Virus record (IMG/VR): IMGVR_UViG_3300027861_000184
Coordinates: 1 to 25,079 of that record
DNA length: 25,079 bases
Reading direction: 5' to 3' (one strand)
From: a virus
Every line of letters starts with the position of its first letter. Position 1 is the stretch's first letter. Shown here piece after piece: positions 8,446 to 22,887 of this stretch. The notes beneath the pieces are model-generated. The model saw only the letters and a list, made by a program, of their open reading frames with translations. It was not told the origin of the DNA and ran no database searches. A program made the translations under genes and the position numbers.

Positions 8446-10518
8446 ATGGCTAAACAAAAGTTAACGGTATTCCAAAGACTGAATAATATTTTCAGTCCAG
8501 ATGGTATAAATGTACCGAAAGATAAAACTAATAGATATTCTATTGGTAATGATGTTTTATTAAAAACACAAGATAAACAAGAGTATGAATATGCTAAATT
8601 ACAAGCACAACAAAACAAATACCTTGGTGGTATGTGGAGAAAGGTTGATGGTGAGTTATTTAGACAATCCATTCATTATGAAACAACCCGTATAGGTTCG
8701 TATAGTGATTTTGAATCTATGGAGTTCTATCCAGAAATATCTGCTGCGTTAGATATTATGATGGAAGAATCTACGACAATAAATGAAAAGGGTAGGGTTT
8801 TAAATGTTTATTCTGATTCAGATAGAGTTAAAACCATATTAGAAGATTTATTTTTTAATAGGTTAGATATACACACTTCACTACCTATGTGGACAAGAAA
8901 CACATGTAAATATGGTGATAACTTTGTTTTTTTAAATATTGACGATAGAGCTGGTGTAATTGGTGTCAGACAAATGCCTAACTTTGAAATAGAAAGAAGA
9001 GAAGGTGATATATTTAAAGGTTTAGCTACTAATAATAATAGTGTTAATGGTGAAGAAGAATCTGATTCTAAAGTTAAATTCTTTTGGAGAGGAAGAGATA
9101 TGGAATTTAATTCTTGGCAGATAGCACACTTCAGACTTCTTGGTGATGATAGAAGGTTACCATACGGTACATCTATACTTGAGAAAGCTAGAAGGATTTG
9201 GAAACAATTAATACTATCTGAAGATGCTATGTTAATATATAGAATTACTAGGGCTCCAGAGAGAAGAGTATATAAAATATTCGTGGGTAATATAGATGAT
9301 GAGGATGTACCAGCATACGTAGACGAAATCGCTAATAGATTTAAGCGTACACCTATTGTTGACCCTCAAACAGGTCAGGTAGACCTTAAATATAATCAGT
9401 TGGCTAATGACCAAGATTTCTTTATTCCAGTTAGAAGTGAGGACGCACCAAGTCCAATTGACACGCTACCTGGTGCTTCTAATCTTGACCAGATAGCGGA
9501 TATTGAATATTTACAAAGAAAATTATTTACAGCTTTAAGAGTACCTAAAGCGTTCTTAGGTTTTGAAGATGCTGTTGGTGAAGGAAAGAATCTAGCTTTA
9601 CAAGATGTAAGATTCAGTAGAACTGTAAACAGAATTCAACAAGCTATGATTATGGAATTAAATAAGATAGCTATCTTACATTTATTCTTGTTAGGTTTAG
9701 AGGACGAGTTGGATAATTTTACACTTACTTTAAATAATCCATCAACACAAGCTGAAATGCTTAAGGTTGAACAATTACAAGGTAAGGTTACGTTATATAA
9801 AGATGCTGTTTCTGATGCTGGTAATGGATTCGCACCAATGAGTATGACAAGGGCTAGTAGAGAGATTCTTGGTTGGTCTGATGATGAAATCAAGAATGAT
9901 TTATTATTACAAAGAATGGAGAAAGCTGCGGCTGCTGAATTGGAAAACACAGCAAATGTTATTAAACATACTGGAACATTCGATGAAGTTGATAAGATTT
10001 ATGGTGATATGGAAGCTGCGTTAAGTGGTTCTGATTCTGATAATAAAGATGATTCTGGTGATGAAGGTGGTCCGTCTGGTGGTGGCGGTGGCTTCGGAGG
10101 AGGCGGTGGCTTCGGAGGAGGCGGTGGTCTAGACTTCGGTGATGCTGGTGATGATGAAGGTGGTTTAGACTTCGGTGATGATGAAGGTGAAGATACTGGT
10201 GGTGAGGATACTGGTGGTGAAGATACTGGTGGTGAAGATACTGGTGGTGAAGATACTGGTGGTGAAGATACTGGTGGTGAAGAAGCTGGATTTGGAGAAG
10301 GTGTTAGAGTTGAGAGAGATAAACTTATTGTTGAGAATAAAAAAATAAATAAACGTAAAAATACAAGACCAAACAACTTTAATGATTTATTAAAAACTAT
10401 TAAACCCAAAGGAAAAACAATATTAAATGAGAGGGTTAAGGTTGTTGATAAAAACGTTAAGATTAATGAAGCTATCAATGGTATGATTAGTGATATTGAT
10501 AAAATGCTAGATGAATAA
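8446..10518 (+). CDS. portal protein (gp20-like) with extended low-complexity C-terminus
   Basis: The portal is the dodecameric ring at one head vertex that nucleates prohead assembly and passes DNA. The 690-aa product has the T4-type portal core to about residue 500: YPEISAALDIMMEE near 95-108, KYGDNF at 155-160, RITRAPERRVYKI at 266-278, and the hallmark LPGASNLDQIADIEYLQRKLFTALRVP at 341-367. T4 gp20 is 524 aa. The excess is a C-terminal extension with an acidic linker, Gly-Phe repeats (545-561), seven tandem GEDTG-like units (581-615) and a basic tail (from 621) holding LNE and INE triplets that resemble prohead-protease sites. The leader has no Shine-Dalgarno. Confidence 0.95.
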   Translation: MAKQKLTVFQRLNNIFSPDGINVPKDKTNRYSIGNDVLLKTQDKQEYEYAKLQAQQNKYLGGMWRKVDGELFRQSIHYETTRIGSYSDFESMEFYPEISAALDIMMEESTTINEKGRVLNVYSDSDRVKTILEDLFFNRLDIHTSLPMWTRNTCKYGDNFVFLNIDDRAGVIGVRQMPNFEIERREGDIFKGLATNNNSVNGEEESDSKVKFFWRGRDMEFNSWQIAHFRLLGDDRRLPYGTSILEKARRIWKQLILSEDAMLIYRITRAPERRVYKIFVGNIDDEDVPAYVDEIANRFKRTPIVDPQTGQVDLKYNQLANDQDFFIPVRSEDAPSPIDTLPGASNLDQIADIEYLQRKLFTALRVPKAFLGFEDAVGEGKNLALQDVRFSRTVNRIQQAMIMELNKIAILHLFLLGLEDELDNFTLTLNNPSTQAEMLKVEQLQGKVTLYKDAVSDAGNGFAPMSMTRASREILGWSDDEIKNDLLLQRMEKAAAAELENTANVIKHTGTFDEVDKIYGDMEAALSGSDSDNKDDSGDEGGPSGGGGGFGGGGGFGGGGGLDFGDAGDDEGGLDFGDDEGEDTGGEDTGGEDTGGEDTGGEDTGGEDTGGEEAGFGEGVRVERDKLIVENKKINKRKNTRPNNFNDLLKTIKPKGKTILNERVKVVDKNVKINEAINGMISDIDKMLDE
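10084..10128 (+). repeat. 18-bp glycine-rich tandem repeat in portal gene
   Basis: GGCGGTGGCTTCGGAGGA occurs at 10084-10101 and 10102-10119, followed by a half unit. It encodes GGGFGG. Its GGC, GGA and TTC codons make it much more GC-rich than its surroundings. Confidence 0.85.
10186..10290 (+). repeat. 15-bp tandem repeat encoding GEDTG in portal gene
   Basis: Six near-identical copies of GGTGAAGATACTGGT run from 10186 to 10275, one with a GAG variant. A seventh degenerate unit (GEEAG) ends at 10290. The repeat is in frame, so gain or loss of units only changes the length of an acidic linker. Confidence 0.92.
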
Positions 10519-11327: not shown

Positions 11328-11777
11328 ATGAAACATTCTAAAGAAAATATAAATAAGTTAAAACTACTTGTTGAGGAGTTAACCATTAGAGATAATGATG
11401 CTTTTGAAAGAAAAGAATTATTAGAATTATTAATGGGGATTACTTCTGATGGTTATTGGGATTGGAACTTAAAAACTAATGAAGTATTTTTAAATTCTAA
11501 CTACAAAAAACAATTGGGTTATAAACCAGAAGAATTAAAGAATGCAAAAGAGACTTGGGAGAAGTTAATGTTTGATGATGATTTAAAACTTATGGAAGAA
11601 AAGGTTAAAGCTCATGTTGATAGTAATGGAACTATACCATTTAAAATGATTGCTAGGTATAAACACAAAGACGGACGAACAGTTAAAATTTTGTGTAGGG
11701 GTAAAGTAGTTGAATGGGATAATAATAACGAGCCTGTAAGAATTGTTGGTACACACGTTGACCTGACTGATATTTAA
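11328..11777 (+). CDS. stand-alone PAS-domain protein
   Basis: The 149-residue product is a short N-terminal helix (residues 1-38) followed by one PAS_3/PAC domain: DGYWDWNLKTNEVFLN at 41-56, YKKQLGYKPEEL at 59-70, a W...DD segment at 77-85, then HKDGRTVKILCRG at 113-125 and EPVRIVGTHVDLTD at 135-148. PAS domains sense ligands, redox state or light, or mediate protein contacts. Here there is no kinase, cyclase, HTH or other output domain. The gene sits 1 base after the preceding frame in the head-assembly cluster, so it is co-expressed with portal and core genes. Partner and signal are unknown. Confidence 0.9.
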   Translation: MKHSKENINKLKLLVEELTIRDNDAFERKELLELLMGITSDGYWDWNLKTNEVFLNSNYKKQLGYKPEELKNAKETWEKLMFDDDLKLMEEKVKAHVDSNGTIPFKMIARYKHKDGRTVKILCRGKVVEWDNNNEPVRIVGTHVDLTDI

Positions 11778-14787: not shown

Positions 14788-14808
14788 ACAAAATAATTTA
14801 AAATTATG
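14788..14808 (+). promoter_or_regulatory. A/T-rich translation leader of the capsid gene
   Basis: ACAAAATAATTTAAAA then TTATG matches the leader at 1315-1334 with one inserted A. There is no Shine-Dalgarno and no ATATTTATA motif here, so the capsid gene is probably read from the scaffold promoter. Confidence 0.4.
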
Positions 14809-16599
14809 TCACATTTATTAAATTCTGGGGTTGTTGGAAATATCGGGTTAGACCACATGAAGGAAATCCGTAAACAAACTCAAGCAAAATGGGATTCTTT
14901 AGGATTCTTAGATGGTCTTAAAGGTCATGTAAAAGAAAACGTTGCTCAATTATTTGAGAACCAAGCGTCTTCTTTATTAACGGAAGCTACTGACGCTGCA
15001 AATAGCGGGTCTTTTGAGACTGTAGTATTCCCAATCGTTAGAAGAGTATTCTCTAAATTATTAGCTAACGATATCGTATCAGTACAAGCTATGAACATGC
15101 CAATTGGTAAGTTATTCTACTTCGTACCACAAACTTCTAGTAGAGTTGATGGTTCTGGAGCAGCTGGTGACTTCTATCAAGATGGTGCTACTTTCTCTGC
15201 ACATACTGCAATGGAGAAAGGTTTACCAGAATGTACTGGTTTCGGAGATTGCGCTGTAACACCATATAAAGCAAAAAATCTTTACGATTTATATTATAAT
15301 GACGGGTTATTTGATAACTCAAAAGGAACTGCATCTCTTTCTGTAGGTAATGGTAATTTAGTAACTTTAACTTCTGAAGGTACTTTTTCTGCTGCTGCTA
15401 ATTTAGGTGCTTTACCAACTGCAACTGATGCTTCTTTAAGAGCTGCTATCATTCAAGTTTCTGGATTCTCTAGTACTAATAAAGGTAGATTAGATGGACC
15501 AGATGGTAACGAAATGGATACTGAAGCTTTCTTAGCGTCTTTAAAAGTTGTTAACGGTGCTGGTGAAGATTTAATTGACCAAGATGGTGCAACTATTATC
15601 GCTGATGGTGCTGAAATTCCATTCAGATTGGTAACTCAGAAATACGGTAAAGGTATCGTTTCTTATGATGATATCTGTGACGTTAATGGTGTATTATACT
15701 TAGAGTTAGATTTAACTCACCCAGCTGTTACTACATCTACTTATGATGGATACGTTGGTGCTGCATCTGGTTCTACTAGTGCATTATCTGCGATTGTTGC
15801 TGGTGATTTCGATATTTCTTGGGCTACTTATGCTTCTCTAGAATTAGAAACTGAATTAGGTGAAGTTTCTTTCAAATTAGACGAGGTTGTTGTATCTGTA
15901 GAAGAAAGAAAATTAAGAGCTACATGGTCTCCAGAATTAGCACAAGATGTTAGTGCATTCCACAACATTGATGCTGAAGCTGAATTGACTGCAATGCTTT
16001 CTGAGCAAGTTGCTGCTGAAATCGACAGAGAAATCTTAAGAGATATCAGAAAAGCTGCTGCTTGGCAACTAAGATGGGATTACAACGGATGGAGAAAAGC
16101 TTCTTCTGCTGCATCACCATATACACAAAAAGACTGGAATCAAACTTTAATTACTAAAGTTAACCAAATTTCAGCTCAAATCCATAAGTCTACTTTAAGA
16201 GGTGGTGCTAACTTTATCGTAGTATCTTCTGAATTATCTGCAATCTTTGATGATTTAGAGTACTTCCACGTAAGTGATGCTAACCCAGAGCAAGACCAAT
16301 ATAACATGGGTATTGAAAGAGTAGGTTCTTTATCTGGTAGATACCAAGTATATAGAGACCCATATGCTCCTTCTTTCTCAATGATTATTGGACATAAAGG
16401 TAAATCATTGTTAGACACTGGTTACATCTACGCACCATACGTGCCAATGCAACTTACGCCTACAATGTACAATCCTTTCAACTTCGCTCCAGTGAAGGGG
16501 ATTATGACAAGATACGCTAAAAAAGTTGTAAACAATAGATTCTACGGACACGTAAGAGTTGATGGTGTACCTACATTTAACGTAGCTGAATTAAGATAA
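14806..16599 (+). CDS. major capsid protein (gp23-like)
   Basis: The 597-aa protein forms the icosahedral shell. The N-terminal delta domain (residues 1-60) ends LFENQASSLLTE before Ala61, matching the gp21 cleavage site of T4 gp23 (after Glu65). The HK97-like fold follows: VFPIVRRVF at 74-82, RKLRATWSPELAQDVSAFHN, AEAELTAMLSEQVAAEIDREILRDI, then YQVYRDPYAP and IYAPYVPMQLTPTMYNPFNF near the end. T4 gp23 is 521 aa. An Ala/Ser/Thr-rich stretch at about residues 180-330 is the likely insertion domain. Codons shift towards TTC, TCT and GGT compared with neighbours, as expected for a very highly expressed gene. It ends before a strong terminator. Confidence 0.97.
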   Translation: MSHLLNSGVVGNIGLDHMKEIRKQTQAKWDSLGFLDGLKGHVKENVAQLFENQASSLLTEATDAANSGSFETVVFPIVRRVFSKLLANDIVSVQAMNMPIGKLFYFVPQTSSRVDGSGAAGDFYQDGATFSAHTAMEKGLPECTGFGDCAVTPYKAKNLYDLYYNDGLFDNSKGTASLSVGNGNLVTLTSEGTFSAAANLGALPTATDASLRAAIIQVSGFSSTNKGRLDGPDGNEMDTEAFLASLKVVNGAGEDLIDQDGATIIADGAEIPFRLVTQKYGKGIVSYDDICDVNGVLYLELDLTHPAVTTSTYDGYVGAASGSTSALSAIVAGDFDISWATYASLELETELGEVSFKLDEVVVSVEERKLRATWSPELAQDVSAFHNIDAEAELTAMLSEQVAAEIDREILRDIRKAAAWQLRWDYNGWRKASSAASPYTQKDWNQTLITKVNQISAQIHKSTLRGGANFIVVSSELSAIFDDLEYFHVSDANPEQDQYNMGIERVGSLSGRYQVYRDPYAPSFSMIIGHKGKSLLDTGYIYAPYVPMQLTPTMYNPFNFAPVKGIMTRYAKKVVNNRFYGHVRVDGVPTFNVAELR

Positions 16600-16659: not shown

Positions 16660-16884
16660 CTATTCGTTTCTATTTGTTTGTATTTCACTTATCTTATCCA
16701 CAATACTTTTTGGATTATTGGGGTTGCTGAAGAATTCTACAAATGTGTTGGTGTAGTAACCTACAGTACCATACTCTCTCTGTACTTTCTCCATTACAAT
16801 TCTTTTGTTCATACAAATATAATAATCTGTTACATCGTGTGCAGTATGTACGGTGTCTACGTATGTTAATTTATTTTCAATCAT
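16660..16884 (-). CDS. small hypothetical protein with host-type promoter (74 aa)
   Basis: I choose ATG at 16884 rather than the upstream ATG at 16932, because the longer version would be translated from a terminator hairpin and lie within the promoter. The 74-residue product begins MIENKLTYVDTVHTAHDVTD. It is mixed polar and has a YGTVGYYTNTFVEFFSNP segment near residues 37-54. It shows no membrane segment and no motif I recognise. A Bacteroidetes-type promoter ends 4 bases before the ATG, which implies an almost leaderless mRNA. Lone, opposite to the head genes and with a host promoter, it looks like an early or accessory gene. Confidence 0.65.
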   Translation of the reverse strand: MIENKLTYVDTVHTAHDVTDYYICMNKRIVMEKVQREYGTVGYYTNTFVEFFSNPNNPKSIVDKISEIQTNRNE

Positions 16885-16888
16885 AACA

Positions 16889-16920
16889 CAAATATAGATA
16901 AAAAAAATGGGATATGCAAA
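16889..16920 (-). promoter_or_regulatory. Bacteroidetes-type host promoter (-33 TTTG, -7 TATATTTG)
   Basis: Read on the - strand: TTTG at 16920-16917, a 20-base spacer, then TATATTTG at 16896-16889. This fits the published Bacteroidetes consensus TTTG-N(19-21)-TAnnTTTG. The predicted transcription start falls at or next to the ATG at 16884. Confidence 0.6.
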
Positions 16921-16930
16921 AGCATACCCC
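16900..16930 (-). terminator. Rho-independent terminator of the metallothionein-like gene
   Basis: On the - strand a 9-bp stem (16930-16922 with 16917-16909, one G·U wobble, loop TTTT) is followed by an 8-T run at 16907-16900. Its loop contains the -33 TTTG of the next promoter, so termination and initiation signals overlap. Confidence 0.75.
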
Positions 16931-16959
16931 AAAATAGTTAATAATTACTGATTGTTATT

Positions 16960-17034
16960 TTATTTTTTACAACAATCACACTTGCAGTTTTCACCGCATT
17001 TTCCATTACAATTACATTTTTCACAATTACACAT
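16960..17034 (-). CDS. metallothionein-like Cys-rich peptide (24 aa)
   Basis: An ATG at 17034 opens a 24-codon frame to TAA at 16960-16962. Nine of 24 residues are cysteine (positions 2, 4, 7, 9, 13, 17, 19, 21, 22), arranged CxCxxCxC-x3-C-x3-CxCxCC with Lys, Asn, Gly, Glu and Asp between them and no hydrophobic residue. This is the composition and spacing of small metallothioneins, which bind Zn, Cu or Cd through thiolate clusters. A terminator follows 30 bases downstream, which supports a real transcript. It lies between structural modules on the - strand. Metal binding is inferred from composition only. It may be co-transcribed with the structural genes upstream. Confidence 0.7.
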   Translation of the reverse strand: MCNCEKCNCNGKCGENCKCDCCKK

Positions 17035-17057
17035 AATAATTTATTTTAATTTACTTG

Positions 17058-17157
17058 TTATTTACAAAGCCTAGTTGCTATTTTATGGGTTATAGTGTTA
17101 AACTGGTCTTCATCATTACTAGACTTACTTAACCCTATTTTTAATTAAACCTTTCAT
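17058..17157 (-). pseudogene. small gene interrupted by a frameshift
   Basis: The ATG at 17157 overlaps the stop of the upstream structural gene as TAATG, a strong coupling signal. It encodes only MKGLIKNRVK before TAA at 17125-17127. Removing one base in the A5 run at about 17143-17147 (or a +1 shift) gives an uninterrupted 32-residue protein ending ITHKIATRLCK at TAA 17058-17060. The rescued part (SKSSNDEDQFNTITHK) reads like a real protein. It may be a decayed gene, a recoded gene, or a homopolymer error in the sequence. Confidence 0.45.
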
Positions 17158-18563
17158 TATTGACTAATTCTTAAATCTGATTGACTTACAATGTCAAAAC
17201 TAAGTGCTTCAGATATTGTGTTCACTTCTAAATTAGATTCTACCTTAACATCTAAATAATAAGTGTTAGGTACAAGGCTTGCAGTGTCTAATAAGAAGTA
17301 ATTATTATTATTTGTCATCTCAACGTCTTGGAAGTCAATTACAGTGTATTGGTTCTTACCTTCTTTAACGTATAAACGGTATTTAAGGCTGTCTACAGTC
17401 TCTTTTTGTTCTACAGTATATGGAATTCTGGTTGACACAAGAACCTTTCTTATATCACCTCTATGAATCCTCTCGTCTCTTTTAATACCAGTAACATTAA
17501 GTCCTATTCTTTTTGGTAACATATCAGCATCACCAATATTAAAATAACCAGTACTATCTTTAAGTGTAAAATCTAATTCTACGTTAGGTCTTGCTATACC
17601 GTTAATAGATATACCAGACCAAACATCAGTGAATTGTATACAATCAACATTCTCAACAGTTGTTGGTACATTTATATCTATTGAATAAACACCCTTGGTT
17701 ACGTGTGTAACATCTGTAGGTGTGTAAGCTGAAAATAAATCGCCATCACCGTTGTATATGTTAACACTTGGTATAGTGTCTAGATTTGTTGGGTTTCCAG
17801 CCAAATTAACATATAAATATAATTCATTATTTTTATCTAAGTAGAAATCTGTTCTATCATCTTTTATATGTGAATCATAAATACTCTCTACATATGGTTC
17901 ATAGAATGTTTGTGTGTGTCTTGTGAAGAACCCAACATATTGATAGTCTGTTGTTGGTGTTTCTTCTAATACTCTTGTAAATGCTATACCTAATCCATTG
18001 TTAGTATTACCAGTTAGATAACCGTTAACAATATCGGTTACATCTATTTCTATATTTTCATTACCTTTATCGAAATGTTGTGTTGCTAATACTGTTGATG
18101 CTCCAGAGTAAACTCCGTTACCACCTGGCCAAGGTGTGTTTGTTCTTGCGTCTAACCAATTTGATGGTGAGAATGACTCAGATGTTTGACCACCTATGAA
18201 TGCACAACTAGCGTAATCATATCCGCAACCTTCATCCCATTCTTCATCTACTGGGAATAATATTAAATCAAAAGAACATGTTCTTTCTTTACCATCACAA
18301 GTTTCTCTACCTAATAATTCTAAATCGAATGCACCTGTGTTGGTCATTCTAAGCGTATGTTTTAGTTTTGATAAATCTGTGTATGTGCCACCAGTATATA
18401 AGTTTTTAAGTCTATATTCATCAAAATAGAATATAAATCTACTATATGATTGTGAGGTTAAATCCCCACCATAAAATAATTCAGTAACTGGGTTTAAACC
18501 TGTGTTTACATTACTATTATAAACTAGTGTATTGTTTTTATCAAAAAATGTTCTTATTACCAT
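17157..18563 (-). CDS. virion structural protein, beta-rich (468 aa)
   Basis: The 468-residue product is beta-rich with many Tyr, Asp, Asn and Thr. Residues about 35-230 (YSRFIFYFDEYRLK, WDEGCGYDYASC, NIEIDVTDIVNGYLTG, GLGIAFTR) resemble a DNRLRE-like carbohydrate-binding fold; the remainder looks like Ig-like or fibre modules. It has no signal peptide, and cysteines are clustered in the N-terminal third. An identical late-promoter 16-mer to that at 1885-1900 lies 6 bases upstream. It follows the baseplate-hub-like gene. It is probably a baseplate or tail-fibre-associated protein. The assignment is from composition and context. Confidence 0.72.
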   Translation of the reverse strand: MVIRTFFDKNNTLVYNSNVNTGLNPVTELFYGGDLTSQSYSRFIFYFDEYRLKNLYTGGTYTDLSKLKHTLRMTNTGAFDLELLGRETCDGKERTCSFDLILFPVDEEWDEGCGYDYASCAFIGGQTSESFSPSNWLDARTNTPWPGGNGVYSGASTVLATQHFDKGNENIEIDVTDIVNGYLTGNTNNGLGIAFTRVLEETPTTDYQYVGFFTRHTQTFYEPYVESIYDSHIKDDRTDFYLDKNNELYLYVNLAGNPTNLDTIPSVNIYNGDGDLFSAYTPTDVTHVTKGVYSIDINVPTTVENVDCIQFTDVWSGISINGIARPNVELDFTLKDSTGYFNIGDADMLPKRIGLNVTGIKRDERIHRGDIRKVLVSTRIPYTVEQKETVDSLKYRLYVKEGKNQYTVIDFQDVEMTNNNNYFLLDTASLVPNTYYLDVKVESNLEVNTISEALSFDIVSQSDLRISQ

Positions 18564-22137: not shown

Positions 22138-22887
22138 TTATTCAGTTATACCATTTTCAATACCATCTATCTTGACAATAGCGTACATTTCTTTGAATCT
22201 TTTCATTGCTACCCTAATATCTTTAGTGTTTAAACCCGTATAGTTTCTCATACTTTCTAGAACGGAGTTCTTATTGAACTTGGTTCCACCAGCCATAGAG
22301 TCTAGAGTTACTTCCCAGTCTTTTAATATATCTATTAGAGCCAACCCAACCTTTTCTTCGTTTTCAGTTAGTTTTTTCTTACCCACAATACTGTCATCAC
22401 CTTTCAATTCGTTTTTCATACCATCGATTAGTTTTTTTATAAACTTATCCATCGTGAATTCACGGTCATCTATTTCATATTGAAAGTCTTTTTTCTCTTC
22501 TAGAGATGTAGCCATATCTTCATATGAATAAACTTGTTTAGTTTTCTTATCATCACTAATAAGTAAACCTAGTATGTAGTTTTTGCAAATCGTTCCGTAA
22601 TAAGAATAAGCCTTAGTACCTTTAGAATTTTCAAATTTGTGAGCTTTTGTCATTAGGAATGAAAGGGTGTCGCTATGTAATTGTTCAAACGTTTCACTCT
22701 TCCTGTATAACTTGTATTTCCTAATTATCGATTCAATCATCTTATCCAGCGGCTCTCTGAGCCACTGGTTATAGATTGCATTCCTTTCTAAATCATCCTC
22801 AGAATCTAAATAATTTAAGACAGCTTTTTCTTGTTCGGGACCAAAGTACAGGTTTGTTGTTCGTTTACGTCCTCTTTTATTACTCAT
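22138..22887 (-). CDS. late-transcription sigma factor (gp55-like)
   Basis: The 249-residue product has the layout of T4-type late sigma proteins: a helical region-2-like block at about residues 45-125 (LDKMIESIIRKYKLY, FEQLHSDTLSFLMTKAHKFENSKGTKAYSYYGTICKNYILGLL, DDKKTKQVYSYED) that parallels T4 gp55 around its NFDETKYKNPHAY segment. A C-terminal helical part follows (KNSVLESMRNYTGLNTKDIRVAMKRF). It would direct host RNA polymerase to late promoters. T4 gp55 is 185 aa, so this one is longer. It is followed by a TATAAATA-containing motif and is the natural reader of the ATATTTATA sites. Starts 5 bases after the glycosyltransferase stop. Confidence 0.82.
   Translation of the reverse strand: MSNKRGRKRTTNLYFGPEQEKAVLNYLDSEDDLERNAIYNQWLREPLDKMIESIIRKYKLYRKSETFEQLHSDTLSFLMTKAHKFENSKGTKAYSYYGTICKNYILGLLISDDKKTKQVYSYEDMATSLEEKKDFQYEIDDREFTMDKFIKKLIDGMKNELKGDDSIVGKKKLTENEEKVGLALIDILKDWEVTLDSMAGGTKFNKNSVLESMRNYTGLNTKDIRVAMKRFKEMYAIVKIDGIENGITE

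Follow-up and report, generated by a model that had tools for sequence, protein, structure and literature searches.

A putative minimal metallothionein-like micropeptide gene in a T4-like phage, with homologs in bacterial chromosomes

In the mammalian metallothionein beta-domain, nine Cys bind three divalent metals (PMC2872756), and the bacterial metallothionein BmtA of marine Synechococcus stores zinc (PMC9337993). The beta-domain (PF00131) resembles the phage peptide described here in its nine Cys, its richness in CxC, and its lack of His and aromatic residues, but it is one of two domains, whereas the phage peptide is free-standing, has 20-26 amino acids across its family, and ends in CxCxCC plus one more Cys. 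The human metallothionein stretch CKCKECKC has the same CxCxxCxC spacing as the phage peptide; the resemblance to the beta-domain is probably convergent. The likeness of SmtA and BmtA (PF02069, Metallothio_Pro) lies in their being bacterial and cytoplasmic, and SmtA, as does the phage peptide, carries an N-terminal CxCxxCxC and nine Cys in total. These proteins differ in their length of about 54-56 amino acids, their His ligands, and their zinc-finger-like fold, the phage peptide being less than half as long and without His. The 25-residue Cu-metallothionein of Neurospora crassa is alike in size, in its CxC-rich sequence, and in being a free-standing single-cluster peptide, and here too convergence is likely; it has seven Cys in a spacing unlike that of the phage peptide, which thus fails the short fungal (Neurospora type) criterion of seven Cys and a specific spacing.

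The window, meaning the whole 25,079-nucleotide stretch of DNA analysed, is a 25-kb virus record from a T4-like phage whose capsid gene matches Gp23 (PF07068). On its minus strand, an ORF running from 17034 to 16960, from ATG to TAA, encodes the 24-residue peptide MCNCEKCNCNGKCGENCKCDCCKK, with nine Cys (37.5% of residues) at positions 2, 4, 7, 9, 13, 17, 19, 21 and 22 in the arrangement CxCxxCxC...CxCxCC, and with no His, no aromatic residue, and no signal sequence. A sequence-only reading had called this 24-residue, nine-Cys gene at 16960-17034, and its coordinates proved exact, although the strand had not been given. The good terminator that it placed just downstream is also present, as an intrinsic terminator with a 10-pair stem and a 4-nt loop followed by eight T on the minus strand (16908..16931), starting about 29 nt beyond the stop codon; a near relative (L104) has it too. 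Upstream of the start codon, an A+T-rich leader without a Shine-Dalgarno sequence (17035..17057, minus strand) ends in AATTATT-ATG much as in aligned L104 and L214, and by inference would be the translation start region of the gene.

The assignment to a phage structural region likewise held. One border of the slot that holds the gene is the convergent major capsid protein gene of the Gp23 family (14806..16599, plus strand; PF07068, E=3.9e-71), and the other is an upstream minus-strand gene for a 468-aa protein (17157..18563), in the same orientation as the peptide gene, whose product has no family match above the cut-off and is probably structural. Beyond the terminator lies a 74-aa ORF (16660..16884, minus strand) that is conserved in L104 (81% over 74 residues). 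Flavobacterium phage immuto and Microcystis phage Mel-JY01 are among the nearest isolates by capsid protein, at about 39-42% identity; a comparable peptide ORF was not found in the 30-kb stretches of these two phages that were examined.

A search of small frames for the Cys spacing, which had been proposed as a check, succeeded: a scan of IMG/VR for CxCxxCxCxxxCxCxCC returned 90 stretches, against zero for the reversed spacing. An initial version of the scan, without restriction on the codons between Cys, had been swamped by low-complexity poly-Cys frames, and it was rerun excluding T-starting codons between the Cys. The pattern demands eight Cys only and leaves a ninth free, and exactly nine were present in all 65 distinct phage peptides of 30 residues or fewer that matched it. 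An earlier count, made with no limit on length, gave nine Cys in 55 of 57; the remaining two were doubled forms of 43 aa that have 17 Cys. In these viral-contig counts identical sequences were removed, with no further correction for relatedness. The usual place of the ninth Cys is the tail, as CCxC or CCC. In the sub-family of the window (the window itself with L104, L214, L034, L218, L217 and L467), alignment showed that the tail Cys is missing and that a Cys stands in a longer linker instead, so that the total remains nine. Nine Cys were also found in copies located through a neighbouring RNA element rather than by the pattern, including one with a shorter linker (L336). The Cys are fixed across the family, and the intervening positions, under loose constraint, hold chiefly K, N, T, D, G and E, with four His or aromatic residues in total among the distinct peptides of 27 residues or fewer. 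Many copies have an A+T-rich leader lacking a Shine-Dalgarno sequence, as in the window, and others have GAGG- or AGGAG-like sequences (e.g., L253, L254).

Related forms of greater length were also observed. Peptides of 43 residues and 17 Cys at three loci (L248, L254 and L257) follow a Shine-Dalgarno-like AGGAG and, from their sequences, look like two units joined head to tail. Longer phage peptides matching pattern A (five loci and their kin), with 35-47 residues and 8-12 Cys, some with His, retain part of the spacing only; they were given no assignment and are perhaps further metallothionein-like families. Six other pattern-A matches were rejected for want of an ATG start.

By the broad definition of a metallothionein (small, very Cys-rich, with CxC, CC and CxxC, and with few or no His or aromatic residues), the peptide qualifies, and the description of it as metallothionein-like is upheld by the sequence features of a thiolate-cluster peptide and by conserved Cys number and spacing, metal binding itself being inferred only. 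It was not assigned to any described family. Pfam profile searches with the window peptide and its relatives matched no family, PF02069 and PF00131 included; since the same search detected SmtA (PF02069, 3.9e-21) and human metallothionein (PF00131, 5.6e-23), membership of these two families is not met. However, no Pfam model detects the 25-residue Neurospora metallothionein, so that for very short metallothioneins the lack of a Pfam match is by itself of little weight. The peptides had no match in NCBIfam and no significant match in the PDB, and PHROGs gave only a meaningless one (E=2.2) for a longer relative. The peptide should work like a metallothionein, if the inferred metal binding is correct, yet fits no described family that was found.

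The favoured interpretation, with a probability of roughly 0.7, is that of a minimal one-cluster metallothionein-like peptide, encoded by an accessory gene shared with hosts, that buffers or scavenges Zn, Cu or Cd; metal binding, stoichiometry, translation, and a role in infection are all inferred, whereas the ORF with its coding constraint, the constancy of the Cys number, the existence of bacterial homologs and the accessory placement were observed directly. The constancy of nine thiols led to the inference of a thiolate cluster holding several metals, for which there are no binding data, and a cluster of thiolates alone fits the scarcity of His and aromatic residues. The half-motifs CxCxxCxC and CxCxCC, with a short linker between them and the ninth Cys in the tail or linker, would wrap around such a cluster, which in its simplest form would have three divalent ions bound by nine thiolates (M3S9), or alternatively be a small Cu(I) cluster. 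Absence of a signal sequence suggests that the peptide stays in the cytoplasm. In T4-like phages related to Bacteroidota phages (hosts were assigned by sequence relationship alone), the gene is accessory cargo, and its product would most likely serve during infection to buffer or scavenge Zn, Cu or Cd, and secondarily thiol redox, as the host is taken over.

A phage-encoded thiolate-cluster peptide had been expected to be unusual. The metallothionein-type features stand, but the peptide is not isolated: the family to which it belongs is unannotated, occurs in dozens of phages, and has bacterial members too. A scan of 84,980 bacterial and archaeal genomes gave seven matching stretches, four of which proved to be genuine short ORFs, from records under the names Bacteroidetes, Flavobacteriaceae and Rhodothermaeota; the remaining three (L315-L317) were rejected as Cys runs inside longer or implausible frames. 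Three of the four genuine ORFs belong to one marine flavobacterial genus with small genomes, in which 17 of 25 genomes have matches, as compared with one of 397 genomes sampled from the wider family Flavobacteriaceae. All 13 loci fetched from the genus lie at one chromosomal site, where the gene order is purM-like, glutamine synthetase and Ca/Na antiporter, in many cases a 119-aa ORF, then the peptide and a pirin-like gene, followed in 12 of the 13 by an msrA-like gene (neighbours were named from inspection of their sequences and not from profile searches). Exactly nine Cys are present in 13 of 14 bacterial peptides, and one homolog, MNCDCKVCDCKESCSCSCCDY, is without the last Cys. In this genus the peptide is encoded at a fixed place in the chromosome, and the bacterial copy, as judged from these genomes, is a gene stably kept by a lineage with small genomes. 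As an observation on these chromosomes themselves, an unannotated micropeptide gene lies between the Ca/Na antiporter and pirin-like genes, often after the conserved 119-aa ORF, in L318, L320, L321 and others of the genus.

The broader proposal, toward which the evidence tilts only slightly, is that these peptides form a new minimal family, in which 20-26 residues hold one nine-thiolate cluster and the unit is in some cases doubled, giving 17 Cys, and that this family is common to marine flavobacteria and T4-like Bacteroidota phages, serves the phages as an auxiliary gene controlling intracellular metal, and would be the first phage-encoded metallothionein. No phage metallothionein was found in the literature searched, which was limited to open-access papers, and a review from 2024 on small proteins of phages is silent on metals, zinc and cysteine.

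In phages the position of the gene varies. Only three of 35 capsid-anchored loci (chosen by capsid similarity, not randomly) have it, and the slot between the capsid gene and the 468-aa gene measures 0.2-5.6 kb in such phages. Elsewhere the peptide gene precedes a Pyr_redox-type flavoprotein gene close to a holin gene, or stands before other genes upstream of the terminase gene. Such placement is the pattern of mobile accessory cargo and not of a virion protein. No recognised metal-response gene adjoins the peptide gene in the phages examined. A tblastn search of isolate phages with the peptides gave no match, but its low-complexity filter masks such queries.

Accessory placement in a variable slot is typical of host-interaction cargo, and the same nine-thiol chemistry could be used offensively, with abundant apo-peptide pulling zinc or copper from host metalloenzymes, regulators or defence nucleases for shut-off or counter-defence. 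Such a stripping role is conceivable but unlikely, as the presence of close homologs at one conserved locus of bacterial chromosomes suggests that the role with metal is a housekeeping one, tolerated by the cell.

The very high thiol density, and the placement of some copies before the flavoprotein gene, would be compatible with a thiol redox buffer or electron donor in which Cys acts as reductant and not as metal ligand. This was judged improbable: the fixed Cys number and spacing, with CxC and CC pairs, fit a metal cluster better than a CxxC-type redox pair, and the flavoprotein gene and its RNA element mostly occur without the peptide.

That element is a conserved structured RNA found before the Pyr_redox-type flavoprotein gene of T4-like phages at L231:3299-3400 (plus strand) and at more than 100 further viral-contig sites. 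It consists of a 5-bp stem around ATTCATAGC, an A-rich spacer, GGA[GT]CTGTGGCC, and then a terminator-like hairpin. The stem covaries strongly: each of its positions is paired in 107-109 of the 109 distinct sites, with up to five standard pair types. The loop CATAGC can pair with GCTGTG as a putative pseudoknot, for which there is no covariation support because both are invariant. No Rfam match was obtained at E<5, and the element is a candidate for a new riboswitch-like leader. A nine-Cys peptide lies directly upstream of it at about 25 sites; the notion that the element is part of the peptide gene was dropped, most element sites being without the peptide.

A virion component with a structural metal site, which had also been suggested, has the structural neighbour genes of the window in its favour. 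The gene is, however, absent from most capsid-anchored relatives, lies beside non-structural genes elsewhere (before a flavoprotein gene and near a holin gene in other phages), and is present in bacterial chromosomes. Because it occupies quite different places in other phages, nothing points to a virion metal site, and this explanation is very improbable.

That the nine-Cys ORF is a real protein-coding micropeptide gene, with translation inferred, rests on comparison of relatives. Loss of the frame or of the Cys codons in relatives had been set as a result that would refute the gene; instead both phages and bacteria retain the frame with its start and stop, the Cys spacing and, most of all, the number of Cys. 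Conservation of the window gene extends to L104/L132, L214, L123/L034, L218, L217 and L467. The capsid-anchored relatives were fetched only by their major capsid protein and are independent of the Cys-pattern search; among them, L132 (the same contig as L104) has an identical peptide in the same place and orientation, and L123 (MATCTCKDCDCGGVCKETCTCDCCKK) and L163 (MKCDCQVCKCGTKCECTCCDC) have diverged Cys-rich peptides, also in the same place and orientation. L104, the nearest relative, differs from the window by five synonymous and no non-synonymous changes; L214 differs from it synonymously at seven codons and by five amino-acid replacements, which leave every Cys untouched. Over all codons dN/dS is 0.13-0.20 (length classes with several pairs), a value that is partly circular since eight Cys were selected for by the pattern; without Cys codons it is 0.34-0.66. 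The next ORF upstream, of about 90 aa, is intact in L214, interrupted by a stop in L104, and mostly deleted in the window, where its remnant (17058..17157, minus strand) is MKGLIKNRVK and, in another frame, GLSKSSNDEDQFNTITHKIATRLCK, each ending at a stop codon. The peptide gene has been kept, then, while this neighbour decayed. Capsid-fetched relatives, synonymous-only divergence, the pattern against its reversed control, and bacterial chromosomes are four independent lines in support of gene status. The reading of the ORF as one that arose by chance above non-coding sequence or a structured RNA has in its favour that the region folds better than shuffles (z = -4.1), largely through the terminator. 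It is nevertheless close to untenable, being already contradicted by codon-level conservation; against it stand the synonymous-only divergence from L104, the lack of reversed-pattern matches, conservation in bacteria, and 300 dinucleotide shuffles of the whole window, none comparable: among their ORFs 15-80 aa long and at least 25% Cys, none exceeded six Cys.

With the peptide gene below normal gene-calling limits, and with no phage metallothionein in the open-access literature and family libraries searched, phages may have a class of metal-handling genes that has gone unnoticed. A constant design of nine thiols in very little sequence, together with bacterial homologs at a fixed locus, makes phage management of zinc or copper in the infected cell directly testable, and the peptide provides a natural scaffold of very small size for a one-cluster metallothionein.

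Other features of the window were noted in passing. A minus-strand gene at 22138-22887 has a weak match to sigma-70 region 2 (E=0.006, below the cut-off) and is possibly a phage late sigma factor. The portal-like protein encoded by the plus-strand ORF 8446-10518 is, at 10000-10400, rich in Gly over a long stretch, after which GGEDT repeats occur close to the C-terminus. Unexpected amid head-assembly genes is a gene for a protein with a single PAS domain (11328-11777, plus strand; PAS_3, E=9e-18).
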